Source: Bolinopsis microptera
Lineage: Eukaryota; Ctenophora; Tentaculata; Lobata; Bolinopsidae
Reading direction: 5' to 3'
NCBI RefSeq assembly: GCF_026151205.1
Contig: NC_087074.1
Coordinates: forward strand, 21,220,424 to 21,284,423
Length of the DNA: 64,000 bases
Part shown: piece after piece, positions 14,463-31,389 of the stretch
Numbering within the stretch: the first letter of the stretch is position 1
Layout of the letters: each line of letters begins with the position of its first letter
The notes under the pieces: generated by a model
What the model was told of the DNA's origin: nothing
Seen by the model: only the letters and a program-made list of their open reading frames with translations
Databases searched by the model: none
Translations under genes and position numbers: made by a program

Positions 14463-15195
14463 GTATCACGACCCTGTTTTTCAGTCTATATCTCATTTGA
14501 TCACTATATCTTTTATTTATTCGCCTTGGCCTTGTATTACAACTAATTAGAAGACTAGGATTTAACGACTTAATTGCCGAATTTGTATACCAATCTGTAT
14601 GTGATAACTATTAATTTTAGTTTTTTTAGTTTAGTTTTTTAACTATTAATTTGTTTTTTTCATTCAAAAACCCCACTTATCCAGGAAACCTCACGGGTGC
14701 TGGTATCGACCTTGCTAAGCCTCGGGGTGGCCTCTCAAGTGTGCCCAGGGGAAGGGGGCCTACAAAGTAAGCACTACTAATTCTGTCTTTTTGGGTTTGA
14801 AGATTTCGCACCTTTAATTTGGGGCCTTCGATTTGCTAGCCCTTAAAATTTAATCTAATGAACAATCTGTTTTTCCCGATAATATCAATTTTGCAAATAA
14901 TCCCTTTACTTCGTTGGCACACCTAAGGCCTCCCAACATTTCTGAGTAAATACTTATTTCCAAAACACGAAGTGATAAAACCATGATGCGGGTGTACCCT
15001 AATTACAGGTTCAGGGGGAGCGGGTTTTTCCCCTCTAACACCCAACAGGGGAGGATAGTACAATACCACAGAGAACCACTCTTCACAAGGGCCCCCTTTT
15101 AACCCCTCAGTGGTACCAAGTAAACAACCAACCTCATGTGAGTCTGATTTTTTGGGGGGTTTATTTTTCCGTTTTTGCCCCCTCCTCCCTCGGCC

Positions 15196-15265
15196 CCCCC
15201 CCCCCCCCCCCCTCCCCCCCCCCCCCCCCCCCCTCCCCCCCCTCCCCATTGGTCACCCGGGGCCC

Positions 15266-15318
<53 letters not shown>
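15196..15318. repeat. Poly-C low-complexity tract
   Basis: Nearly uninterrupted C with a few T/G interruptions. It generates poly-proline frames in all three plus frames and so is not evidence of coding. Confidence 0.85.
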
Positions 15319-17737
15319 TTTCAAATATCATTAGGGGAGTTTGGTTTTAAGGGGTAGGAAGTTAAAAAGAATGGCCATAAGGGTAAATTAAACAATTTTG
15401 AAACTTTTTTTTTTTTTAATGATAACAATTTTTCTTGATTGAAACGTAGGGGGGAGAATTTATCTTCATTGGTTAAGTTAAAGATGCACGAATCCCAAAA
15501 AATTACTGACGAAAAATATGAATAAAAGATCGCAAGAGGTCTTCTCCCTTTAAAGGGTGAACTATGTAGACGCTCCTTCTGGAATCAAGGATAAAAAAGT
15601 CCCGGCGCGGTATGGATACTGCAGAAATTTAGAGCACTGATACTCACCATTTGCTTCGCGTTTTGTCAAGTCTTTTCGTTAAAGAGTTATTTGGCCAGTG
15701 CCATGACAAGGCCATGACTTTGCCTTTCCCAATGACCATTGTCTTTTCGACAAAAACAATGATGGGTTTAAAAAACGGGGTCTAGGATGGGGGAGAAGTC
15801 TATGAAAAAGGTCATAAGAGCGCAACGTAGCTTTCCCCGTTTCTTTCTTAAAGATCCTGGTCGGCTCTCAGATCTGAGCTATGGCCCCAAAATGATGACT
15901 AGGATATGAGTTCATGTGTTGCGCGAAAGCTGCGCTGAATTGGCCTTTAACACCACCCCTACTGTCGTTACCCATCCTATGACTTTAGGGCGGACCTTTC
16001 CCCAAAGAATGGATCTGGCAAGTCGAAAAACAAGTACCGCATGTAACATAAAGCCTTTTTCGTGCTTACACTGAACAAAATTTGTTACAGCCCCCCTCTG
16101 GCATAAGACGGGGGCTAAATCACAAAAATTAACAGGGATCGGATTGAACGGGAAAAAAAACATAAATTTGCAGAGATCGTTGGCTAAGATTATATTTCGT
16201 AAAAGAAAGGAAAAAGGTTTGGGTAAGACGGAAGTTCAACAAGCCTAAACTTCGACTATGTCGAATAGAGTACGGTCCGGCTTTAGTTCGACACGTCAGA
16301 AGTTCGTGTCGAGAGTACTGTCGAACTTAGTAGTGAATCATTTGCCCAGGACCACTGACCATACAAATGCAATTCATAGCCATGACCCGTTATCTCTCAA
16401 CAACAATGAATTTTTAAAATATTTGGGAAGCCCGGGGCCATAGGATTGCAACAGGATCTCCAAGTTTATAATATAATGGCCACACTTTGGCACACCATTG
16501 TTTAGAGTGCCGCCAACGGAACTTTCCCAATCGTTACCCGAGTTACTTTATCTGAGAGCCAACCAGAATCCTCATATTAGGAAAACCTACCTCATAACGA
16601 GGATCGGTTGGCTCTCAAAAATCGCGGCAAAAGCTGTGAGCTATTGCTCCGGAAAAAAAAAAAAAACCACCACCCCCTGGGGGGCCCTCTGTGAGTACCG
16701 TTACGTGTGTCAGGCCTATATACTCACACAAGTTCTAAACATGAGTATGGACCAGAGGGTGTAAAGATAGTGAGCCACAGGAAACACACCTCTACTATTA
16801 ACTTAAACTTAACGTACAAAATAATGGTGGGACCCCCTTTTTTTTTTGCCCTGCATAAAAAAATTTCCCTCTTAAAACCCCAAAGAAAAAAAAAAAATCC
16901 CCCATTCCCCCTTTTTTTAATGTTCAGGTCTCACTTCTTTATGAATAATTTTTACTTAGTTGAAATTATTTTTGATTTTCCTATAAGTAAATAAAACAAA
17001 ATTTGGGGCCGGGGGGGGGGGTTAAACTTTTTAATATATTCCCATTTTTCCACGAACAAACCCCCTCGAAATAGTAAAAAGTCACCAAGCCTTTAAGCCA
17101 GGGACAAAAACTTTTTTTCTTGTGCGAGTAACCCCTTATATCCCCAAGAATATCCTGTTTAAAATTAAACATTTGACTCTTTACAATTGGTCCCTAAATT
17201 TTATACTTTTGTCCCCCCCCAATTTCTAGCCCACAATCCACCAGGGCTGGGAATCCTCAACGGGACCCCAGACAAAGACCGGGTCACTGAGGCTGCTCCA
17301 AACTCTATCACCCCTTTCTCCTGCCTGTAACGATTAGATCGGTCGGTCATTTTTTAAGATTTTTGCTTAAATTTTTAAAAAAAATTAACTATTCCTGTTT
17401 TGTGGTATAATCTTAGTTACCACAGTTACCACGTTACCACTAGTTAACTTTTTTCCCAAATAGTTACCACTTTTTACCACTCACCCCCCTCGCTACTATC
17501 AATATTTTCCTGAGTGGAAATGTGAGGGGGGGTGGTTTCTTTATAAAAAACCCACAAAGCAGTGTTGTATCTATGAGGGGGCCCGGAGGGGGGAAGATAT
17601 TCCTCCAGTGCCTGGGTGTTCCGCGGAGCTCTTATCAGGTCGTTTTTCTCCGACTTCAATGATCTCCCTACCCCTTACCGGTAAGGGAAAATTTTTTAAA
17701 AAATTTTTTAAAAGGAAATTGGTTTAAAAAAGTTTTG

Positions 17738-17739
<2 letters not shown>

Positions 17740-17789
<50 letters not shown>
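17740..17789. repeat. Poly-A tract of about 50 bases
   Basis: A single uninterrupted A-run. It might be a retroposon tail on the plus strand, but the flanks are too poor to test this. Confidence 0.7.
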
Positions 17790-17792
<3 letters not shown>

Positions 17793-20700
17793 GGGGAAAT
17801 GGGAAAAGAAAAAGGGGGTGAATTTTCCCCTTTAAAACCGGTATTTTTTTTTAAAAAATTTAAATGACGGGGGAGCCAAAGGGGGGTAAAACCCCCCCCC
17901 CCCCCCCCCCCCAAAAAAATTTCAAAATTTACCGATTTTCCCCCAAAAGGGGGGCCCCGTAGGGGGGAACCCCCCCCCCCCCGGGGAAAAAGAGAAAAAA
18001 AAGCCAAAAACCCCCACAACCCACGCCAAGGGGGCATGCTTTTAACATCAACCCGACTCCCTTAACTTTTGGGGAAGGCGGGCCCAAACCAGACCAATTA
18101 GGAAAAGGGAGCTTAATGGATGATGTGGGGGCCCCCGAGGAAAGGGGGCCAAAAAGGGGTTGGGGTTTGGGGGGGAAAAGGACAACCGAAGCGCCCCATG
18201 AAAAAACCCCAACCAAAAGAAATCTTACTAACCCCCGCAAAACCCCCTCCTTATTCCCAACGCCCACCGGGGGGGACCTCTATGACCCCCTTTAGGGGGC
18301 CCACAGGGACAAATTACCCAGGGGGCAAAAACAAGGAACCCTTAAAAGGGGGAGACCAAACCCTTTTCCAAAACCCCCCCAAAATTAGGGGGTTAGGCTT
18401 TTAATCAACCCCCTCCGGGAAATTTTTTTTTGGGGGGGGGCGTCTTTTTACCAGCCGGGGGGCGGGCTACGGGTTTTACTCTGGAATCCAGTTAAAAGGA
18501 GGGGGGACGGTTTTTTCACCCGGTAAGAGGGTGGAAACCAAAATTTAGGTGCAGGGAGTTAACTGGGGGTTATGGGCCCGAGGTCCAGGCCTTTTTCCCC
18601 AAAACCCTCCCCCCACATCTTTCTTCAAAAAAACCAAAATTTTTTTAAAGGCTGGGGGAAAAAAAAAAACGCCCAAAAGTTGGGTCCCGAAGCGGAGAAA
18701 TGGGACGAAATTTGGGGGGTACAACCCCAGTTTAAGTAAGTTATTAGAAAGGTTAATTCACACTCTAGTTTTGAGGCCCTAAGGCTCCCAAAAAGGTGGT
18801 TTTTCAACTCTGGTTTTTTTAACTCAAGTCCAACCATAAAATTTAAGAGACTGTCTTGGGAAACCCCTAGGGGAAATACAGGGGGGGGCCCCTTGGGCAA
18901 AAAAATAGGCTTACCGAAATCAGGTTTGAACTTTACCCCACGATTTTTACTTTTCCCAAATTTTTTTGTTTTTTAAATTCCCAAAATAATAAAAAAAAAC
19001 TTTTTCCCCCCCAGGTATGGGAGGGGTTTTTAAAATCCGTGGTTAGTGGGGGATTAGGCAGGAAAGGTTCCCCCCAAAGTCGGTCCCCGTTTAAAAATTT
19101 TTAACTCCCCCATTTTTTAAGTGAGGGAAAGATGTTTAGAGCCGACAAGGGAAACTTAGACCCAGGAGGGGGACTTTTTCTTTTTTTTTTTTGGGCCTTT
19201 TTCCCTTTTCTTCCTTTTTTTTTAAACCTTTTTTCCTTTTTTTTTTTTTTTTTTAAAATTTTTTTTAAAAACATTTTAAAAGAAACCAAAATTTTTTTTT
19301 TTAAAATTCAAATGAATCGGGGGTGGAGGGGTTAAAAATGGGTAGGGGGTTCCAGCATTCCCCTTTGGGAAAACAAGCGGGGGGGGGTACCATAAAAGGT
19401 CCTTAAAAGTTCAAACAGGGGTTTTTGTTTTTCCCAGGGACTTTCTTTTCCGGCCTCTTTTTTCCGTTTTATTTTTTTTACCCCAAATTTTTCCCCCCTT
19501 TTTTTTTTCAATTTTTTTTAAAAAACAATAAAAGGAAGAAACAAAATTTTTTCTTCCTAAGAGTTAAAAAAAGGGCCCGATGGCAGGGGAAAATTTGGAA
19601 TTTCCCAAAAACCCGCAAACCCTCTATTGTGGAAATAACCGCAAAATACGGGGAACGGCATTTGGTTTGGGGGAAAAGCCCCAAAACCGGGGGGCCGTCC
19701 GACTTTCAAAAGGAACTTTAAAAGGGTTTTTAAGGAATTTGTTAGATTTAGGGGAATCTTAACCCCAAAAAAATTTTGGGAAAAAAAGGTTACAATTTTA
19801 TACCGACCCGGGGTTTTTTTTTTAAAAGGTTGACCGTCCCCTCAATGAAATCCGGAAAATCCCCGATGCAGGACAAGATTTCTTTATCTGGAAACTGCCC
19901 TTTTTTGGGGAAACTTTCTTTTGGGGAAAGGGGCCAAAAACCGTTTGGGCGTTTTTTTTTAAAAAAAGGAAATTTAGGGTTTTAAATTTGTTTGTTAAGC
20001 ATTTAAAAATGTTTCGAATAAAGGTTTCCACGAACAACCGGTTTTAATTTTTTTCAAAAAACTTTTAAACCATTTCTATTTAAAATTTTTAAAAAACTCC
20101 TGGTTTCTTCAGAATTAAATTATTTTGGGGCATCCCGTTAAAAAAATTAAGAATCTTTAAATTGCTGGCAAACCGATTTTTTAAAAAATTTTAAATTTTT
20201 TCTTAAATTGAATTTTTAAATTTAAAAAATTTTGGGTAAATTTTTTTTTGAAAAACAACCCCCCCGTTTTTTTTGTTTGACCAAACGGAGCTTATTTAAA
20301 AGACCTTTTATCATTGGGACAAAAAGTTTAATTAAATTTTTTAAATAAATTTTGGTTTTTTTTGAATTTTTTAAATTGAAAAATTTTTTAAATTTGAGGG
20401 GGGACTATAATTTAAAAACCACCCCTTTAATTAAATTCAATAAATTAATAATTTTTATTTTTTAATTTTTGGTAGGTTGATTTTTTAAAAACCTTTTTTC
20501 CCCTTGTTTTTGACTGAATTTTTATTTTATACCCAAAATTTTTTTATAGCTAAATTTTTAATTGTAAAAATCAAATTTTTTAAAAACCAAATTTAAATAA
20601 AATTTTAAAAAATAAATTTGAGCTTTACTTATTTAAAAATTTTTTGGTTTTTATTGTAAAGGGTTTTTATGTTTTTCTAAAAAATAAAATATTTTTTTAT

Positions 20701-21535
20701 TTTTATTTTAGGGTGTAATAAAAAATTTTTGAAAATTAAAAACGAATTATTTTCTTTTTCTTAATATAATAATTTCCAAATTTTGTCCATTTTAAAAAAA
20801 ACTAAGCTTTTATCTTAAATTTTTTAAATTTTTCAATTTATAAAAAAAATTAAATTTTTTATCATACAATGGAAATTTAAAATACGATTAAAGGCCCTTT
20901 ATTAAATTTCTACAAAGTTGGGGGGTTTTTGTAAAAAAAATATTTTTTAAAAAAGGGGGGAAACCTTTTTAAAATTAAAGAACAGGAAAAAACCTGTTCT
21001 TCAAAACAAACCTACCTTTTTTTATCAAAAAAAAATTTTTTTCCCGGGTTTTTTTTTTGGTTTTAAAAGTTTAAGGGGAAAATTGGGCTGTTTACAGGAT
21101 AAAGGGGGGCCAAGAAACGCAAAAAAAACGGTCCATTTTTCGTTTTCAGTCATAACTTCTTTTTTCCCTAACGAACCGTTTGGTTTTAAAATTTTTTACC
21201 TAAAAAGGGGAAAAGGGTTTAAGAAAAGGTCAAGGGGATTCTTTTTTTTTGGGCCTTTATCAAATTTTTAACTTTGGAAACTTAAGGGGGGGCCTGTAAA
21301 AATCAACAAGTTTTGCCCAATTTCCCGGAAAAATGGTCCTTTTTAAAGAACTTTTAGTTTTCAAGGTACTTTGCCTCTCCAACACAAAAAAGTTTCATTT
21401 CATTTAAAAACGTTTTTAAAAATTTTTTAAAAACAATTTAATTTTTTTTTTTTGGGGGTGCTTTTCAAATTTAAAAAATTTTTCAAAAGGGGGGTTTATC
21501 GTTGTGAAAAATGTTACTTACCTTAGTAATGTCAG

Positions 21536-21766
21536 GTTGCTGGCATAATAACACCGGTAACATAGGAGACTTTAACAGAATTGGACAGAAAAACCTGATC
21601 AACAAAGACGATTGTATAAGTTGGTGTAATGAAGAGGAACTTTGTCTAGCAGTACTTATAAGCCCAGCTCATTGGACCAGGAGGCAGTGTTATAGATTAA
21701 AGTACACGGACATTGGTTCCCGGTCGGGCTGGTTTACAGCTTATAAGTCATGTTTTGGGACCAAAG
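21536..21766 (+). CDS. PAN/apple-like exon of the GPCR gene
   Basis: A phase 1-1 exon with an ATGTCAG acceptor and a GTAAGA donor. It encodes a Cys-rich module beginning GCWHNNTGNIG, with DDCISWCNEEELC, CYRL and YKSC. The spacing resembles PAN/apple modules, which bind proteins or sugars. Its membership of the GPCR gene is inferred from strand, phase and order across a 3.4-kb intron. Confidence 0.55.
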
Positions 21767-24700
21767 GTAAGATTCCCAAATTGATCTGTTATTGAGTTGG
21801 TACGTGCTTGGGTTAAATTTGATATAAAACGATATCTGATTGAGATTGTTTGAATTAAGCTATAACACTCCACCAGAATGCACTAGACTGAACCCGAGCT
21901 GGTGAAAGTAACAACCAGTTATTAGCATCTTTATATTACGAATCTTAAGTCTGAAGCTGATTAATCTGTTTGTATGCTTTTTTTTGTTGGGGACCGGCCC
22001 GAAGTACCAGCCAATGTTTACTCAAAAAATAATATATATAATAAGTGTTATCAATTCAAACTCAAAACTCATACAAGATTAGATCTCATTAAAACGATTA
22101 AAATGTATATAATAGAGCTTGTCGAAACAAAACATAGCTGAGCACATATAAAGTTGCCTTTAGCTGAAATTATCATATTAATATGCTTTTAGAGTTGTTA
22201 GAGTGGAAACAGGCGCATAGCTACTGCTAGCTAGCAATTCCAAAATTTTTAAAATTTAACGACTGTTATCAGTCGCATAGCGTCATGCCGTTTTTGCTGG
22301 CGAATTGATGGCAGTGTAACTGAGATGGTATGCAGTGAAATTGATTCTGTGATGGCGTGCTTATGGGACAGAGTTATTATTAGCATTACGGTTGATGTTG
22401 CGCTCTGATTTCCTTAGTCCCGTTATATTGTATAACATAAAGTTAGGCCATTCGTCTGCAATGCCCTCGTTTTGTTGATCAATGAGCATGTTTTTTATGC
22501 ACCTTTTGTAGATGTTAAGGTTGAATAGACTTGGCAAGGAAGTTGCTGCGACACTATATCTGTTTATTGCTAATAGTGGACCTTTGTAGAATACTGAATT
22601 ATTGTAAGGGTGTTTACCGTATTCATCTGACCATAAAGTTGTAAGACTCGAATCCGGATCGGCGACGTTAAATATTGGTGCACTGTTAGGTATTGTTTTC
22701 TTTATAGAGGGAGGCACTAGACTTGGGAAGTTTTTTAGCTTATGTATAAAAACTAATGCGTTCTTCACGATGATACTTTGAACTGTCAATATTTTGTGTA
22801 CATAGAAACCAGACTTGGTACTTGCTGGTGGTGTACCATCTTTGTACCAGTAATTAACAAAACCTGGTAGTATTGCTCTAAGACCCATTTTCTGTTTAAC
22901 AAATAGTGTTTCTATATGGGATTTGGCAGCAAAACCCCAGACGAGGGAGCAGTAATTAAGGTGAGACTGCACAAAGCTGTGATATATTTGTAAACGTGCT
23001 TCCAGAGGCAAATATTTTTTAAGTTTGTACATGACTCCAATGTATCTGGCCATTTTCATTTTCATGGCAGAAATATGTTGCGACCAGTTCAGTTTGTTAT
23101 CTATTATAACACCTAAGAAACGGGCTTCTGTTTTTCTTTCGATTGTGACACCAGAAATTACTACATCGCGATAAATGAGGTTTCTTTGTCGAGAAAAGAT
23201 CATATAATTCGTTTTTTAAAGATTTAGAGCTAATCCGTTGTTATCTACCCATTTAACTAAGACATCGCTAAGAATTTTGAGCTTATCATAAACCTCGTTT
23301 ATATTTTCTCCTGTTAGGAAAATGTTTGCATCATCTGCGTACATGATGAAATTAGCTATTTCTGATATTTGAGGAAGATCGTTTATGTAGATTATAAAAA
23401 GGAGAGGTCCCAAAATTGAACCTTGGGGTACACCGTAAATAATTGGATTGGCTGAGGATTCAGAGGATCCAATTGATACAAACTGGTTTCTGTTCATAAG
23501 ATATGATTTAAACCAGTTTAAAGCTAGACCTCTTATGCCATAGTGCTCGAGCTTATTCAGGAGTATGGAGTGATCCACAAGGTCAAAGGCTTTGCTAAAG
23601 TCAATCAAGAGGAGCAAAGTAACTTGCTTTTTAGACATTGAATTGAGGATTCTGTCTTTAGCATTAAGAAGTGCATGTTCACAAGACCTACCTGGGCGGA
23701 AGCCGTATTGATTTTCACAAAGTATATTGTAGGTATCCAAGAAATTTATGACTCGATTGTGCATAAGCTTTTCGTAGACTTTTGAGAAAGTGGCAAGTAG
23801 AGATATCGGTCTGTAATTTTTGATGTCAGTTTTAGATCCACCTTTATGTACAGGAACTACTTTTGCCGTTTTCAAGGCTTGGGGAAAGACCCCTTGTTCG
23901 AACGAGCTGTTAACAACGTGGGCCAATACAGTGGTAAAATTATGACAGCTGTTGGCAATTTTGAGTGGTTGGATTTTGGTGTCAAGAGTAGCTTTATTCT
24001 TAAATAGGTTAATAACGTCTTGAACTTCGGTAGTTGTGACTGGTTTTATGTAGATACTATTTGGAGAAGGGTTACGTAGTGTCCCCTGGGCCCCACCAGG
24101 ATCGAAAGTGGTCCTACTACTAATTTCAGATTTAATTTTTGGAGCGATGTTTGAGAAGTGATCATTAAATTTTTCTGCTACTGCTGCCGGAGTGCTGACT
24201 TGTCCGTTTTCGTCCGACAGTTTTATCGATGTAGGTTTGGCTGGTTTCCTATTCAGAAGTCCGTTAATCATCTGCCACTGCTTCTTAGAATTATCTTTGT
24301 GTTGTTCAAAGAATTTTTTGTAGTGTATGTTTTTGGCTTTGTCAACGTGTTTGGTGCAAAACTTTTTCAAACGGTCATATTTTAGCTGGTTCCTATCAAC
24401 TGGTTCCTTAACAAAATCATGATATGCCTGATTTTTACGTTCTATAGCTTCTTCAAGCCAGGGCAGTATCCATGGTTTGGGATTAACACGTTCATTTTGT
24501 CTGCGCTCGGACTGTCTTTTTTTCGGGTAGGCAGCGTTATAAATCCTGTTGTAAGCCGAATTTAAACAATCAAACTGCTGGTTAGCATCAGGGGTATTTG
24601 TTAGTATTACAGACCAATTTTCTTCCATTATTAAATCTCTAAATTTATGGTTGTTGGCCTCATTAAAACTACGTACGTTGGTTTGTGTTGGATTTTGATT

Positions 24701-27700
24701 ATAAGATGCGGAAGAGAAGATGCTGTTAGACTCAGTTTATAAACTGACTCTAACAGCACAAATTGATTGTATAAATATAATGGGCATAATTGAATTCTTG
24801 TCAAGGGAGTCTTCAGCTTCACTGTCGTGTTTTTATACCGTAAATCAAAATATAGGACCACCTTGTATTACATTGATTGACGGAGGAGTGCTATCACAAA
24901 ATTCACACTGAAGAGATACATTTCTCTCAGTTCACGTGACGTCACTTAATACCAGACGTGACGTCACTTAATACCAGACGTGACGTCACTTAATACCAGA
25001 CGTGACGTCACTTAATACCAGACGTGACGTCACTTAATACCAGACGTGACGTCACTTAATACCAGACGTGACGTCACTTAATACCAGACGTGACGTCACT
25101 TAATACCAGACGTGACGTCACTTATTAATACCACACAGGTTGGTTACCAGTGCAACCTGATGACGATGCGTACATAGAATAGGACCTGGCTTCAGTACCT
25201 TTACAAGTTAAAACCAACAGCGAGTTGCAGAGTCTAGATAACCTGACAGTGTCCTTCTACTCTGCTTGGAAGTACAATGCAGGAAAAGTATGGATCAACT
25301 TCGGCGAAACTCTAAAATACAAACTCGACTGGTGCAAGCCTTCCTGGTCTAACTTCTCCATAACACCTCCCAGTGATGCAGACAAGATATGGCGTATCAC
25401 CCTCACCAAAAGTGCAGATATCAGGCTTGTGATACACTGTAACGAGGTGGAGGTGCTCAACACTCTGCTCTCAGACACAACGTGTGATTGGCGTAGATGG
25501 AGAAACATCTGGGGTAAAAATGTGACAAAAATAAGCTTCTCCTCCGACACTGCGTCAGATTACTATGGACCAAGTAAATTAAAAGCTTGTATTTTTAACC
25601 AGGCCAATATCAGTATATATATATATATTTTCAATATTGCTAGCATACTGAACACTGATAATGGGATTTCGAGAGTTTCAAGTATTAGATGTCATATTTA
25701 ATCAGAACCAAAGTATGTTCCCCTCTGAGTTCTGACACTGTGTCTAAATAACTACTTTTGATAATTTCAATCGTGCTGCAAAATAATGTCGCTCACAATT
25801 GGTTTTAAGTATCGTTACTAATCAATTAAAAGTGCTTATTGATCACAATTAAAAGTGCTTATTGATCACAATCCATTAATAATTGCAGTTACCTTGTTAT
25901 CTTCTAATTTTAGGTGGACGGTAAATCCATAATTTTCATCAATAATGCGAATAAAAAATCATTTGACATTACATCACTATGTAGATAGTTGCAGTGGACT
26001 AAAGGCTGAGTGGACGAGGACGATCGAAACGACAAGACAGTTCCCAATACTGTCAGGAACCGTGGTGGAAGTGACATGCTCGTACTCTGGAGCTCTCAAC
26101 AAAGGGAGCAGTGAAGTTACATGCTCGTACTCTGGAGCTCTCAACAAAGGGAGCAGTGAAGTTACATGCTCGTACTCTGGAGCTCTCAACAAAGGGAGCA
26201 GTGAAGTGACATGCTCGTACTCTGGAGCTCTCAACAAAGGGAGCAGTGAAGTTACATGCTCGTACTCTGGAGCTCTCAACAAAGGGAGCAGTGAAGTTAC
26301 ATGCTCGTACTCTGGAGCTCTCAACAAAGGGAGCAGTGAAGTGACATGCTCGTACTCTGGAGCTCTCAACAAAGGGAGCAGTGAAGTGACATGCTCATAC
26401 TCTGGAGCTCTCAACAAAGGGAGCAGTGAAGTTACATGCTCGTACTCTGGAGCTCTCAACAAAGGGAGCAGTGAAGTTACATGCTCGTACTCTGGAACTC
26501 TCAACAAAGGGAGCAGTGAAGTTACATGCTCGTACTCTGGAACTCTCAACAAAGGGAGCAGTGAAGTTACATGCTCGTACTCTGGAGCTCTCAACAAAGG
26601 GAGCAGTGAAGTGACATGCTCGTACTCTGGAACTCTCAACAAAGGGAGCAGTGAAGTTACATGCTCGTACTCTGGAGCTTTCAACAAAGGGAGCAGTGAA
26701 GTGACATGCTCGTACTCTGGAGCTCTCAACAAAGGGAGCAGTGAAGTGACATGCTCGTACTCTGGAGCTCTCAACAAAGGGAGCAGTGAAGTGACATGCT
26801 CGTACTCTGAAGCTCTCAACAAAGGGAGCAGTGAAGTGACATGCTCGTACTCTGGAGCTCTCAACAAAGGGAGCAGTGAAGTGACATGCTCGTACTCTGG
26901 AGCTCTCAACAAAGGGAGCAGTGAAGTTACATGCTCGTACTCTGGAGCTCTCAACAAAGGGAGCAGTGAAGTTACATGCTCGTACTCTGGAGCTCTCAAC
27001 AAAGGGAGCAGTGAAGTTACATGCTCGTACTCTGGAGCTCTCAACAAAGGGAGCAGTGAAGTTACATGCTCGTACTCTGGAGCTCTCAACAAAGGGAGCA
27101 GTGAAGTTACATGCTCGTACTCTGGAGCTCTCAACAAAGGGAGCAGTGAAGTTACATGCTCGTACTCTGGAGCTCTCAACAAAGGGAGCAGTGAAGTGAC
27201 ATGCTCGTACTCTGGAGCTCTCAACAAAGGGAGCAGTGAAGTGACATGCACGTCTGGAGACGCTTTTACTCATCTAGCGGAGCCTAGTTGTCCAAAACCA
27301 GGTTAGTTGTCCAAAACCAGGTTAGTTGTCCAAAACCAAGTTAGTTGTCCAAAACCAGGTTACAAGTTTTAGTATGATACCTATGCTTGAGGTTAATACG
27401 ATGCAACAACTTAAACTCGTATATTGAATTTTTGAAGCAAACCCAAAATTGGGTAGATTCAAGAGTGGACCCGGGACCGTCGCAGATGTCCCCTTTTTTT
27501 ACTCATTTCTACTTTTAGAGTGCAAATATGAAATTTTAAAAAGGAGCCAAATATTTTTAGCATTCTGATTATCTAATTTTCAGGTGGTCTGGGACAAGGC
27601 TGTGCTTCTGAAACCTATCGAACGCAGTACGGAACATTCAGCCACGGCTGGCTGGGGCTCGGTAAAAGCTCACAGTACAAGAAATGTCAGTTTGATGACT

Positions 27701-30700
27701 TCACGGCGGTTTTCACTTGCAAGATGAAAAGGAACAAGGAGTTATATGTGGAGAGGACTTACTATTGCAAGAACACTAAAAATACGATAGGAATAGAACA
27801 ACTAGCCAACGATAAGGTTATTTCAGTATTAGTATTTTAGTATGACCCATATCAGTTAAAAAAGTTACACATGGTATCTTATACAACTAGCTTAAACCAT
27901 AGTTAATTTTCCAATTGTTTATGTTGATGGCCGGTCACATAACTACATTCTCCTCAGACTGCCTCGAATGAAGATAAGACGGCACAGATGGAGAAGATGA
28001 CAAATAATGAGGGTATGAACGGTATCGGTGACGTAGAGGCGGTGTCTAATGTTCTAAAATCCATCGTCAAAAGCGGGGAAATCTCCGAGGCAGTGGCCCA
28101 GAGCGTCCTAAACACCGTGTCTAAACTTGTGAAGTCCGACTTTAAAACAGCTGATAACGACACTGAAACCCAGTTCGCCAGCAAGATCTGTGACGGGTAC
28201 ATTGTTTTGATTTGTTTTTGTGAGAATTGTACCATACTTCAAAATTTGTCGACATTCATACATTACTGAATCATTTCTGGAATTTATTTCATCATTTGTA
28301 CATTAAAAGACACAAGCCACAAATCATAACCTATAAATAGATCTAACCGATCAGTTTGGTGACTCAGACTGTTAACGTTGTTAAGCAAACTGTTGTCAAG
28401 AACAAGATTATCAAGTCTCCTCGCATAGCTGTGATCGATGTTAAGAAAGATGCAGATGCTGGTGAACCCAGCAGTAATGGAGTTGTCGCCCTCACCCTTT
28501 CTAAGGCAAGTCGAGGTGGCAAGGACCTTCAAGGTTGCGAAGTAGACTCTGGATCCGGCGATGACGAAGAGGAAAACACGATTCTATTGGTCAGAATTTA
28601 TTTATTAGTACTCGCTTAACAGTACCTATAGAATTCATACAGTAGTTATTAGTATTGCAATGCGTAAATATTATGAATTTAACATCGTATCATTAAAATA
28701 TGTTACTATGAAATTTATTCAGATCGAGACAAAGTCGGGAGAAAAGAACGTAGATGTGGACATGGCCGTGGTCCTCATCACAGACTCGACACTTATGCCC
28801 GACAGGACGACTTCAATCTTGACAAAAGAGGAAGACGAAGACGACAAGGAAGCCGTCACTAAAATCATGGATGACCTGAAGAATGATTTGGAGGACGCAA
28901 CCAAGAAAGATGGCGAGGACACCAAAAAGAGCTTTGTTAACTCATTCATCACTGAGGTCAAAGTTCAAAACGCAGTACCTGATGACTTCAAGCTAAATGT
29001 CTTCATGAAGCCCACCATTAATATAGTGAGTTATTTAAATACGATCATTATACTTAAATTTTAATTTTACACTGTGGCAAATAAGATTCTGGACGATATC
29101 AGACAATTTTCGTCGGAAAGCAAAAAGTAATCGAAATCATGAATGAGACAATTTCTTACGTTTCGCACGTGCAAACTTTATGCGGATGTTGCGTGCGCAT
29201 CTAGTACCACAGTGCTGGCAAGCATAACAGAGATATTTACAGTTTCCACCTCTTTACCCAAAAAATATAAGTATACATCCTATCAGCATTAACGTAAATA
29301 ATTCCTTTTTACTTATATTTTCTAATCCTCTACAACCTTCAGGGCAACACCAGCTCAAGCCTCACCATGGAACCTAACGGTAAAAGAATGCAAGTTTCGT
29401 ACATCTGCGCAAAATACGACCCTGTTAAAGCAAAGTGGAAGGAGGGTTGCGAGACCATCTACAACTCTGCCATGCCATCAGATGGGGTGCTCTGTTTGTG
29501 CAGTCACAACACCAGCTTTGCTGTTCTCATGGTGAGATTCTGTGGAAGGAAATTTATAACCATCATGATACATAACTCGTTTTATTTTATGTAATACTGG
29601 CCTCAAACTCAGAAACTCGTCTTACTTATAGTAATATCTCCCAGCTTGAAACACTCCTTCACCAAATGTTTTCAGTCAGCTTACGAGATTGACCGTGGGT
29701 TTGCCGAAGTACAGAGCTACTTAACGTATGTACTACTCGGAATTTCAATCGTCAGTCTCATCTTAACTCTGGTGTTCCTACTTCCTGCTAAAGCTCTTCG
29801 ATCAACTCGATCCGCTAAGATCAACATCTGTTTCACCACCGCACTTTTGTTGGCGTCATTGATGTTCCTTATCCAAGACGCTTTCATTTCTGCTGATGAT
29901 ACCGGAGTTATAAAACTGGTAAGCTTGAGTTATATTTAGAGGTTAGATGATAACTATAAGTTGTGCTGACAGAATATAATATTATAGGAGTCCAGCTGCT
30001 TACCATAACTCAATAAGATATCCTTTTTAATCCAGTTGTCAGACCTTTTCGAATACTGCCCGACTCATCAGCCACCACCCGTTTCAGAAGTCGACGGGAT
30101 GTGCCGTGTACGCGATGATCCAGCATTACTTATGGCTTGTGGTCTTCGCCTGGATGGTCGTCGAAGGGTTCCTTATGTACCTTTCTCTCGTACAAGTGTT
30201 CGGATCTCATATCTCAAAGTGTATGCTGAAGTTTAACCTCGCGGCATGGGGTATGTTATTATAATATTATTATTCAATCTTATATTTTCTCTATCTGAAC
30301 ACTTGCATAATCTTGGTTATTCGATTGTTTTTTAAATAAGAAGAGTATAATTATATACTCTTATCATACAAATTACCTGACCATATTCTAGGTATCCCTC
30401 TACCGATACCATTCATCGGATATTTCGTCTTCACGAAGCAGCACACCGTAGGTAGCTTCACTTTCACAGAACACGGGTACCTAGCGGACGCTATGTGTTT
30501 TATCCGACCTGAAAGTACATCCTTCTACACTCTCTTCTTAGCCCCCATTGTCTTGGTTATCTTGGTGAACCTTGTATTCTTCGCACTGGTTGCCAAAGTG
30601 ATCAAGAACTCAAACTCATCCGGCAACATCTCTGATCGGGGACAAATTTTAGTGAGTTCTAAGGTTGCTAATATTTAGCGGCTTTCAATATGATCGAAGA

Positions 30701-31389
30701 ATTGTTTAACATCTGGCCTGTTGTCTGGTTTGTTTTACTTTTGATATGCTTCATTTTAATATCGCAAAAATTCTTAAACTAACTTCAGCGGCAGCTTAAA
30801 TCAGCAGTCGGTGTGATGGTCTTGCTTGGAACAGGCTGGTTCTTTGGAATATTCATGTCCCTCCCAGCCCCTCACTTCCAAGTGGGGATGCAGTATCTGT
30901 TCATTCTTCTTAATAGTTCTCAGGTATGCGTGTGTTTTCTACAGCCTTCTTTATCCTTCTTCCGAATTAGATGTTATCTTTAAAGTATCATAATATCGAT
31001 ACCCACTACACAAGTATATCATCATTATGAAAATTAAAGACGAAAAATGGTTAATTGCACTACAAACGGAGATAATTATCCATGTAAACTTTCAGGGCAT
31101 ATTTGTATTCCTGTTCTACATAGTGCTCAACGACCAGGTCACGTCTCACTGGCTGGTTAAGGTTGGGCTCCAAGAGGAGAGGAGGACCTCTACAATATCT
31201 TTCGCCGCCGCTGCCGCCGGTAGATCAGTAGCCCCGTTAACTCAGGCAATGACGATCAGCGCCAGTGCAGTCCCAAACCAAGTTGACAACATTTATGAAA
31301 ACGCCGCCGCCTCCAACGATGATCGAACGTCTGAAAGTGTAAGCAAAAATGAGTTTCCAGCTAATTCAGACGATAATGCAGAAATTTGA
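21536..31389 (+). CDS. Adhesion-type GPCR with repeat-expanded sushi ectodomain
   Basis: Thirteen exons join in phase: 21536-21766, 25196-25573, 25985-27301, 27584-27816, 27958-28196, 28355-28589, 28723-29025, 29343-29531, 29676-29918, 30043-30250, 30392-30651, 30789-30923 and 31096-31389 (TGA). They give about 1,420 residues with no frame break. Ectodomain modules sit on phase 1-1 exons, typical of shuffled extracellular domains. Next come a GAIN region, a GPS motif and seven TM helices with adhesion-family signatures: Trp-rich TM3 with VEGFLMYLSL, GTGWFFG in TM6 and NSSQGIFVF in TM7. The TM3/ECL2 cysteine pair (TGCAV, DAMCFI) is present. Family knowledge: such receptors are cleaved at the GPS and signal through G proteins via a tethered agonist at the plasma membrane. 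The signal peptide and 5' exons are missing, lost in the low-quality block upstream. The ligand is unknown. Confidence 0.85.
22361..24628 (-). mobile_element. 5'-truncated CR1/Jockey-like non-LTR retrotransposon (reverse transcriptase)
   Basis: Two collinear frames, 24628-23216 (470 codons) and 23203-22361 (280 codons), are in the same register, separated by a TAA at 23213-23215. The first carries the reverse transcriptase: NYRPISLL at about residue 271, FRPGRSCEHAL at 310, DFSKAFD at 343, GVPQGSILGPL at 399 and YADD at 430. The second carries the thumb and C-terminal region (LGVIIDNKLNW, LNYCSLVWG). The upstream endonuclease domain is missing, so the copy is 5'-truncated and dead apart from possible trans activity. 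It lies reversed in the first visible intron of the GPCR gene. No clear 3' tail was identified. Confidence 0.85.
24720..24756. repeat. Imperfect hairpin near the retrotransposon 5' junction
   Basis: TGTTAGACTCAGTTTATAAA pairs with the following CTGACTCTAACA with one mismatch. It is a small inverted repeat of unknown role. Confidence 0.6.
24933..25126. repeat. Tandem array, 22-bp unit with perfect CRE palindrome, 9 copies
   Basis: The octamer TGACGTCA, the consensus CREB/ATF site, recurs exactly every 22 bp from 24937 to 25120, nine times. The spacer CTTAATACCAGACG is constant. It lies in the GPCR intron just upstream of exon 25196-25573. The spacing is close to two DNA turns, so all sites face one side. 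Whether it acts as an enhancer is inference; it may be a simple minisatellite. Confidence 0.9.
25196..25573 (+). CDS. Unnamed conserved ectodomain exon of the GPCR gene
   Basis: A phase 1-1 exon of 378 nt (GGCTTCAG acceptor, GTAAAT donor). Motifs are LTVSFYSAWKYNAGKVWINF, WRITLTKSADIRLVIHCNEV, LLSDTTCDWRRW and DTASDYYGPS. This two-Cys module occurs in many invertebrate extracellular proteins but I know no functional name for it. It is intact here. Confidence 0.65.
25824..25869. repeat. 23-bp direct duplication in intron
   Basis: AATTAAAAGTGCTTATTGAT(CAC) occurs twice in tandem, 115-160 bp upstream of the sushi exon acceptor. Confidence 0.85.
25985..27301 (+). CDS. Sushi exon expanded by 26 in-frame 45-bp repeats
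   Basis: A phase 1-1 exon of 1,317 nt, in place of about 200 nt expected for one sushi module. It begins SCSGLKAEWTRTIETTRQFP and ends TSGDAFTHLAEPSCPKP, the two ends of a normal CCP domain. Between them lie 26 copies of a 15-residue unit, EVTCSYSGALNKGSS, one cysteine per unit. Variants are Thr for Ala (units 10, 11, 13), Phe for Leu (unit 14) and Glu for Gly (unit 17), plus silent GTT/GTG changes. No stop or frame break occurs. How such a chain folds is unknown. An uneven pool of added cysteines suggests either a disulfide-stapled stalk or intermolecular bonding. Confidence 0.9.
26068..27237 (+). repeat. Coding minisatellite, 45-bp unit x 26
   Basis: Exact 45-bp periodicity throughout, with sparse substitutions and no length variants. 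All three minus frames and the other plus frames are also largely open because the unit lacks stops; those are shadows. Confidence 0.95.
27284..27361 (+). repeat. 19-bp repeat duplicating the sushi-exon 5' splice site, 4 copies
   Basis: TAGTTGTCCAAAACCAGGT is repeated four times in tandem. Each copy carries an AG|GTTAGT donor-like sequence (the third has AAG|TTAG). Only the first copy keeps the frame; the next would read into a TAG at once. Confidence 0.85.
27584..27816 (+). CDS. Cys-rich module exon of the GPCR gene
   Basis: Phase 1 in, phase 0 out. It contains GQGCASETYRTQYGTFSHGW, KKCQFDDFTAVFTCKMKR and ERTYYCKNT. There are four cysteines; the family is not recognised. It sits between sushi and GAIN, where other adhesion GPCRs often have a hormone-receptor-type module, but I do not see that signature clearly. 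Confidence 0.6.
27958..29531 (+). CDS. GAIN domain and GPS exons of the GPCR gene
   Basis: Four exons (27958-28196, 28355-28589, 28723-29025, 29343-29531). The first has the helical GAIN-A pattern DVEAVSNVLKSIVKSG...EAVAQSVLNTVSKLV. Later ones are beta-rich with an acidic insert (TKEEDEDDKE). The last ends in a GPS motif: W..GC, CLCSHNTSFAVLM. Autoproteolysis would fall between Asn and Thr of H-N-T; the commonest family residue before the Thr is Leu. Confidence 0.8.
29125..29235. repeat. Dispersed repeat fragment in GPCR intron
   Basis: CGCACGTGCAAACTTT ... GTTGCGTGCGCAT is shared with 33345-33385, and CAGTGCTGGC(AAGCA) at about 29211 matches the termini of the element at 34312-34637. It is probably a deleted copy of the same mobile element. 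Confidence 0.6.
29676..31389 (+). CDS. Seven-transmembrane domain and C-terminal tail of the GPCR
   Basis: Exon 29676-29918 holds TM1 (LGISIVSLILTLVFLLP) and TM2 (CFTTALLLASLMFLIQDAF). Exon 30043-30250 holds TM3; its acceptor is the second CAG at 30040-30042, since the first one upstream gives the wrong frame. Exon 30392-30651 holds TM4-TM5. Exons 30789-30923 and 31096-31389 hold TM6-TM7. The tail of about 70 residues is Ala/Ser/Asn-rich and ends in DDNAEI. All seven helices and the TM3-ECL2 disulfide are intact. Confidence 0.85.

Follow-up and report, generated by a model that had tools for sequence, protein, structure and literature searches.

What becomes of an extracellular domain, and of the receptor that carries it, when a short segment of the domain's own core is multiplied many times in frame? 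The question is raised by a 64,000-nucleotide stretch of the genome of the ctenophore Bolinopsis microptera (NCBI RefSeq assembly GCF_026151205.1, NC_087074.1, positions 21,220,424 to 21,284,423, forward strand), hereafter the window, in which one exon of an adhesion G protein-coupled receptor (aGPCR) gene holds 26 tandem copies of a 45-bp unit inside a sushi, or complement control protein (CCP), domain. The sequence comparisons reported here suggest that this is probably a young coding minisatellite in a real ctenophore aGPCR gene, that it expanded apart from a second array in a sister gene, and that it acts most plausibly as a tolerated spacer.

The array itself was confirmed as an in-frame feature of an aGPCR exon. 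Tandem Repeats Finder (TRF) reported a 45-bp period at 26068-27253 with 26.4 copies, 98% matches, 0% indels and a score of 2239, and a reading unit by unit gave 26 full units, each of 45 bp, followed by a partial unit of 16 bp. This agrees with a first-pass annotation of the window, which had described 26 in-frame units of constant length with one cysteine each. The unit peptide, EVTCSYSGALNKGSS, is 15 residues long and is found in exactly this form in 21 of the 26 units. Variation is confined to five of the 45 positions: position 6, the silent third base of a valine codon (GTT in 15 units, GTG in 11); position 15, with one silent variant; and positions 23 (G to E, one unit), 25 (A to T, three units) and 28 (L to F, one unit), so that three of the four variants outside the valine codon are non-synonymous. 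The cysteine is kept in every unit, both here (26/26) and in the sister array designated A11 (35/35). The array sits in an open plus-strand frame of 457 aa (25933-27306); a minus-strand frame of 430 aa (25977-27269) is likewise open across it, and a third frame is broken once. Its units run head to tail and in frame, as those of a coding minisatellite (variable number tandem repeat, VNTR) do. Pfam matches of the array exon to KLHL33-BTB and M60-like_N exceeded their cut-offs with no stretch passing alone, and they were set aside as repeat artefacts.

That the multiplied segment belongs to a sushi exon, another claim of the first-pass annotation, was borne out through the relatives of the exon. 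An alignment was made of 39 single-unit exons of the same genome (39 of 56 rows, with 17 omitted as broken, near-duplicate or redundant, including L025, which lacks the last cysteine), and six of its columns, Cys2, Trp9, Cys31, Gly40, Cys46 and Cys60, are invariant in 39/39. Pfam Sushi (PF00084) matched 22 of the 39 at E up to 1, with a best E of 3.2e-08; the exon of the closest single-unit member, L003, which is the locus B11 discussed below, has no Pfam match. The family profile matched complement receptor 2 (CR2; E 3.2e-28) and factor H (E 1.6e-22) in the PDB, both as multi-domain chains. AlphaFold2 (AF2) modelled a single-unit exon with a pLDDT of 88.8, and the top Foldseek rows for this model were factor H chains with probabilities of 0.92-0.99 and no E-value <0.05. 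Together, the alignment, the Sushi matches, the profile and the AF2/Foldseek comparison identify exon 4 as a divergent sushi/CCP exon, the single-unit form of which is predicted to adopt the CCP fold.

With the four cysteines of a CCP numbered in order, the domain is held by the disulfides Cys1-Cys3 and Cys2-Cys4. The repeat unit is the Cys2-Cys3 segment of the domain itself, and the window copy lacks the four-cysteine spacing of a CCP, since 26 units part its first Cys2 from its final Cys3. All 39 aligned members hold one unit only, and the distance from Cys2 to Cys3 is 42 or 45 nt in 40 of the 40 checked. The family is larger than these counts: a single-domain probe of the genome gave at least 156 matches, with 150 of 489 candidates scored, on all 13 large contigs, and unit number was checked in only part of the family. 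One member, L027, holds eight CCP modules, at least four of them within a single open frame of 1251 aa. Known variation in CCP proteins adds whole CCP domains, as in CR1.

The gene around the array is an adhesion GPCR, as the first-pass annotation had it. Its exons 2-14 (21536 to 31389; Table 1) have AG at all starts and, for exons 2-13, GT at their ends, and they splice to 1405 residues that are open to the stop codon with no internal stop. Pfam 7tm_2 matches fall in three separate exons of the window. The spliced single-unit paralogue B11 matches 7tm_2, the secretin-type seven-transmembrane (7TM) domain, at E 1.2e-38 (133 bits), and the closest solved structures in the PDB are ADGRG6 (E 3.1e-35), ADGRG2 and ADGRD1. 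A putative cleavable GPS motif, HN/TS, was recognized by reading the sequence; the corresponding Pfam match reaches E 0.00027 and 21.8 bits in the window, against a cut-off of 22.5, and 20.3 bits in B11. Outside the array, the window copy and A11 differ by a synonymous divergence (dS) of 0.036 and a non-synonymous divergence (dN) of 0.010, giving a dN/dS of ~0.28, and over exons 8-12 the window copy and a more divergent locus, E3, differ by a dS of 0.447 and a dN of 0.049. By these measures, the receptor around the array is intact from exon 2 on, and constrained.

Table 1. Exons of the receptor gene, the array and other elements of the gene, in window coordinates.
Feature	Position	Strand	Description
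Exon 2	21536..21766	+	PAN-like domain; weak Pfam match under cut-off
Reverse-transcriptase element	21979..24719	-	In the intron before exon 3; RVT_1 E 1.5e-33
22-bp intronic minisatellite	24934..25124	+	8.7 copies; copy number varies among paralogues
Exon 3	25196..25573	+	Extracellular domain without Pfam match
Exon 4	25985..27301	+	Sushi/CCP exon holding the array; AG/GT borders; same exon with one unit in paralogues
Array	26068..27237	+	26 complete 45-bp units (EVTCSYSGALNKGSS), then partial 16-bp unit to 27253
19-bp minisatellite	27285..27362	+	4.1 copies; the units repeat the splice donor of exon 4; number of copies varies among paralogues
Exon 5	27584..27816	+	Extracellular segment containing cysteines
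Exons 6-8	27958-28196, 28355-28589, 28723-29025	+	GAIN-like by position; Pfam GAIN subdomain A marginal, E 0.25, under cut-off
Exon 9	29343..29531	+	Candidate GPS motif (CLCSHNTSFAVLM)
Exons 10-14	29676-29918, 30088-30250, 30392-30651, 30789-30923, 31096-31389	+	7TM domain, C-tail, stop

An 81-residue 7TM exon is identical at five close loci of the genome; E3, a sixth locus, reaches 95%, and a further eight match it more weakly, at 56% or less. Over the five near-identical loci, the array counts 26 units in the window copy (contig C3), 35 in A11 (C11:17.33 Mb) and one each in B11 (C11:17.38 Mb), C11e (C11:20.77 Mb) and D3 (C3:18.90 Mb), and the variation in copy number that had been anticipated is thus present at least among the loci of one genome. 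A four-unit protein probe reached E 1e-20 or better at the window copy and A11 only, the remaining scored matches lying at E 2.7e-7 or weaker (150 of 300 candidates scored). Exons 2-14 are free of stops and frameshifts in the window copy, A11 and B11. In D3 (L051, C3:18901800-18911700), exon 14 of which falls outside the stretch examined, a deletion has fused exon 3 with the latter half of the CCP exon, and the frame is lost at the junction. C11e (L050 and L058, C11:20765600-20777500) stops after the first 11 nt of exon 13, and exon 14 is absent from the 3.6 kb beyond the break; it lies ~50 kb from the end of C11. E3 gave no DNA match to exons 2-4 within the 9.9 kb examined. A further locus, L006 (C3:14575600-14579700), closely resembles the D3 junction but is noisy, with numerous small indels; either poor assembly quality or decay of the copy is the likely cause.

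Two of the three single-unit copies are ~99% identical to A11 outside its repeats. Of the eight matched blocks of the gene region in A11 and B11, seven are 99.1-99.6% identical and the remaining one is 98.9% identical; longer gapped alignments across the repeats give 95.8-99.5%, and coding dS is 0.009, despite a difference of 35 units against one. The surroundings of the two (C11:17326301-17342152 and C11:17374300-17392200) match over ~16 kb at ~99% with interruptions, 46-50 kb apart and in the same orientation; on the low-coordinate side the stretches compared, which leave out 2.3 kb, match each other in two blocks only (1097 and 385 bp, ~93%). A11 and B11 are either a tandem duplication or unpurged alleles.

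The valine codon that varies within the arrays also bears on their age. In the window array GTA is absent (0 of 26 units) and the codon at the array boundary is GTG, whereas the A11 array has 21 GTT, nine GTA and five GTG units among its 35, next to a GTA boundary. The single-unit loci fall on the same two sides, in that D3 has a GTT unit and a GTG boundary, as in the window, and B11 and C11e have the GTA boundary of A11. The difference in GTA between the arrays (0/26 versus 9/35) gives a Fisher p of 0.007, a value that serves as a guide only since the test treats as independent units that are not. Outside the valine codon, no substitution was found in the 35 units of A11. Because the valine codons mostly match their own boundary, two recent local expansions are favoured over one old shared array; and because the nearest relatives are single-unit on both sides, separate expansions require two steps, whereas an old array with later losses requires at least three. 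The best reading of these patterns is that the arrays of C3 (window) and C11 (A11) expanded separately and recently. Very recent expansion or homogenisation, the latter put forward in the first-pass annotation, is likewise supported, with the caveat that short-read polishing may itself homogenise arrays.

The ordinary exon suggests how such an expansion could begin. The 12 nt ending at the Cys2 codon and the 12 nt ending at the Cys3 codon are near-repeats (GAAGTNACATGC) placed 45 nt apart, with 11 of 12 positions identical in B11 (L003) and D3 (L004) and 10 of 12 in C11e (L002). Slippage or unequal exchange between them could have produced a first duplication of exactly the 45-nt unit, and further exchange would then have lengthened the array and homogenised it, the frame being preserved because 45 = 3 x 15. 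Two non-coding minisatellites in the same gene, with units of 22 bp and 19 bp, likewise vary in copy number among the loci.

Several observations weigh against separate, recent expansions in an intact receptor gene. Five GTG units of the A11 array mismatch their own GTA boundary, and the codon counts assume an independence that the units do not have. The five loci are mosaic in identity, arrays contract easily, and two of the three single-unit relatives, D3 and C11e, are damaged. Other members of the exon family share 10-11 of the 12 nt at the same 45-nt spacing, one of them with an exact run of 11 nt, and are unexpanded; the microhomology was therefore rejected as a sufficient cause and is regarded as permissive only. 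Finally, the start of the signal-peptide exon is present in A11, B11, C11e and D3, but the window yielded no such exon. In the window copy this exon is probably hidden in low-quality sequence and not necessarily lost. The stretch 15194-21483 is homopolymer-rich and noisy by eye, resembles gap-fill that has escaped polishing and may conceal this exon; within it, 490 nt (20335-20824) align to the clean upstream region of A11 with a score of 248, where the highest among 20 shuffles was 37, and with a net length difference of 139 nt.

Among the other explanations, the one that survives best holds that the expanded exon is dead weight, being skipped in transcripts or carried by copies on their way to becoming pseudogenes, which we regard as possible, if rather doubtful. 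Exon 4 measures 1317 nt (3 x 439) and has phase 1-1, so that skipping it would preserve the frame; damage has struck two of the five close loci, D3 having lost part of exons 3 and 4 and C11e ending in exon 13; and a retrotransposon lies in an intron of the window copy. Against these points stand the open frame through exons 2-14 in the window copy, A11 and B11, and the dN/dS between the two array-bearing genes.

An alternative history, to which we give somewhat less credence and which we consider unlikely, is a single ancestral expansion before the split of the C3 and C11 copies, followed by contraction to one unit in B11, C11e and D3 or by gene conversion between the loci. The two arrays share a consensus unit, both contain GTT and GTG units, and minisatellites contract readily. 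The mosaic identities also fit exchange between loci, the window copy and D3 being 98.0% identical in a 1.8-kb 3' block and 99.6% over 500 nt at exon 2, and 90-95% in two blocks between. This history, however, calls for one gain and then two or three contractions, all of them stopping at exactly one unit, in place of two gains. Moreover, the C11 array of A11 is flanked on both sides by sequence that is B11-like and not window-like, its GTA units match the C11 boundary only, and it is unvaried outside the valine codon although A11 and the window copy have diverged elsewhere to the dS given above.

The first-pass annotation had suggested selection for the reading frame, which we do not find supported: 45 is a multiple of three and the unit is stop-free, so that a perfect repeat is open by construction and no selection is required. 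Selection for frame was rejected as unneeded also because one further frame, on the minus strand, is open across the array, and because of the preponderance of non-synonymous changes among the variants outside the valine codon. The same annotation had proposed that the array could act as a variable-length stalk linked by disulfides, and an adaptive structure of this kind is, in our estimation, improbable. It could draw on the retention of the cysteine in all 26 and all 35 units, on the conservation of the exons around the array, and on the altered mechanical response of fly CIRL upon ectodomain lengthening in the available text of PMC5548486. However, no selection is needed for a perfect repeat to retain each of its residues, and of the four window variants considered above three alter the peptide; moreover, the cysteine count of exon 4 in the window copy (29) is odd, and B11, an intact and near-identical gene, manages with one unit.

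As regards the protein, the normal CCP core with its Cys1-Cys3 and Cys2-Cys4 disulfides would no longer be able to form in the array copies. The ectodomain would gain ~375 residues from the 25 extra units of the window copy and 510 from the 34 extra units of A11, and the added residues are expected to be neutral and Ser/Gly-rich and to include one cysteine in every 15; the cysteines of exon 4 total 29 in the window copy and 38 in A11. The receptor would still be produced, either with a lengthened ectodomain or with exon 4 skipped in frame, and in the former case the spacer would alter reach and the tension on the GAIN/GPS region. In the available text of the fly CIRL study a lengthened ectodomain reduced the mechanosensory response (PMC5548486), which makes an effect of a spacer plausible here. 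The most likely role of the array is that of a tolerated, length-changing spacer, rather than a new binding module.

AF2 applied to the window exon alone, as a single sequence, placed a strand every 15 residues in a beta-solenoid (pLDDT 75.5, pTM 0.74). Foldseek found nothing significant for this array model (best E 0.61), and, according to the available text of PMC11795689, AF2 turned 32 of 78 random perfect repeats into beta-solenoids. The solenoid was not accepted, as it coincides with this documented artefact and has no significant structural match. We consider it very unlikely that the Cys2-Cys3 segment, multiplied twice in parallel, stacks as a beta-solenoid of 15 residues per turn with a row of cysteines, forming a rigid rod of variable length on a mechanosensitive receptor. 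If it did, a globular module would have been turned into a rod, and rod length would form a natural dose series across the intact sister genes, which have 1, 26 and 35 units.

An ionotropic glutamate receptor of this genome matches ML032222a, a Mnemiopsis protein, far better than it matches mammalian receptors (1e-121 versus 2.4e-42), as would fit a ctenophore near Mnemiopsis, and a sea-anemone origin was set aside. For a second receptor, kainate receptors ranked ahead of ML032222a, and an anthozoan GFP-like protein found no match, a negative that shows nothing by itself. The assembly was, as far as the available text of its description goes, built with wtdbg, gap-filled with TGS-Gapcloser and polished by Pilon with Illumina reads (PMC10232365), which leaves the exact number and the purity of the units uncertain; units of 45 bp cannot be positioned by short reads, and polishing with such reads can homogenise arrays. 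That copy number and unit identity differ from those of the animal as an artefact of assembly or polishing, in keeping with the gap-fill-like window sequence before 21483 and its length difference from A11, is nevertheless highly improbable, given that the variants differ between two cleanly flanked arrays, that long reads easily cover a length of 1.2-1.6 kb, and that exons 2-14 are undisturbed in the window copy, A11 and B11.

The first-pass annotation knew of no receptor with a cysteine-bearing repeat inside a sushi domain; GPCRs with coding repeats of comparable unit size are known. DRD4 has a 48-bp VNTR in exon 3, with 2R, 4R and 7R alleles in the descriptions available, and is thus a GPCR with a coding minisatellite of similar unit length. 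The DRD4 repeats are located in the third cytoplasmic loop; unlike the present gene, DRD4 belongs to a different receptor family and has no cysteine-bearing extracellular domain core. In the part of the literature covered, no coding repeat was found described inside a CCP core or an aGPCR ectodomain, which is no proof of absence in print. A coding VNTR in a receptor is, then, of a known kind, and the position in the CCP core and the natural length series are unusual.

Other known systems resemble the array-bearing gene in part. The single-unit exon has the four conserved cysteines and the tryptophan of the CCPs of CR2 and factor H, together with the profile and AF2/Foldseek matches; in the window, by contrast, a fragment of one CCP is repeated and the domain spacing is broken. 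The candidate GPS motif and the 7TM domain are shared with the aGPCRs of the ADGRG and ADGRD groups, from which the present gene differs in the PAN-like, unclassified and CCP domains in front and in the 26 or 35 units within the CCP. MUC1 repeat units are not known to carry a cysteine and mucin repeats are not known to derive from a CCP, in contrast to the array described here. MUC1/MUC22-type repeats do share with it the near-perfect tandem coding structure, and the solenoid bias of AF2 is discussed for such proteins in the available text of PMC11795689. The lengthened CIRL constructs described in the available text of Scholz 2017 (PMC5548486) offer a functional parallel, as a longer aGPCR ectodomain blunted the response at ~2 nm and flattened it at ~20 nm; there, engineered RFP or CD4 Ig spacers were used in the fly, whereas here the array is natural.

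The effect of aGPCR ectodomain length has so far been tested with engineered spacers, and B. microptera provides a natural series. One genome of an early-branching animal contains near-identical, open receptor genes with 1, 26 or 35 units of 15 residues, a set that differs mainly in the length of the outer part of the receptor. It may also offer a view of a coding minisatellite near its birth, as the single-unit precursor persists at ~99% identity and the steps from one unit to many can therefore be read and tested.

Some further features of the gene were recorded. The unit of the 22-bp minisatellite includes the palindrome TGACGTCA, which we take to be a cAMP response element (CRE)-like core. 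Among the units of the 19-bp minisatellite, the first splice donor alone keeps the frame, as the next unit carries an in-frame TAG. The reverse-transcriptase element is flanked by an exact 5-bp repeat, ATGCT, at 21974-21978 and 24720-24724, with 7 of 8 positions matching over 8 bp; it is absent from the four close paralogues compared and was therefore probably inserted after the copies had separated. The window forms the terminal 64 kb of contig C3, and the receptor gene lies ~33-42 kb from the end of this chromosome-scale contig.

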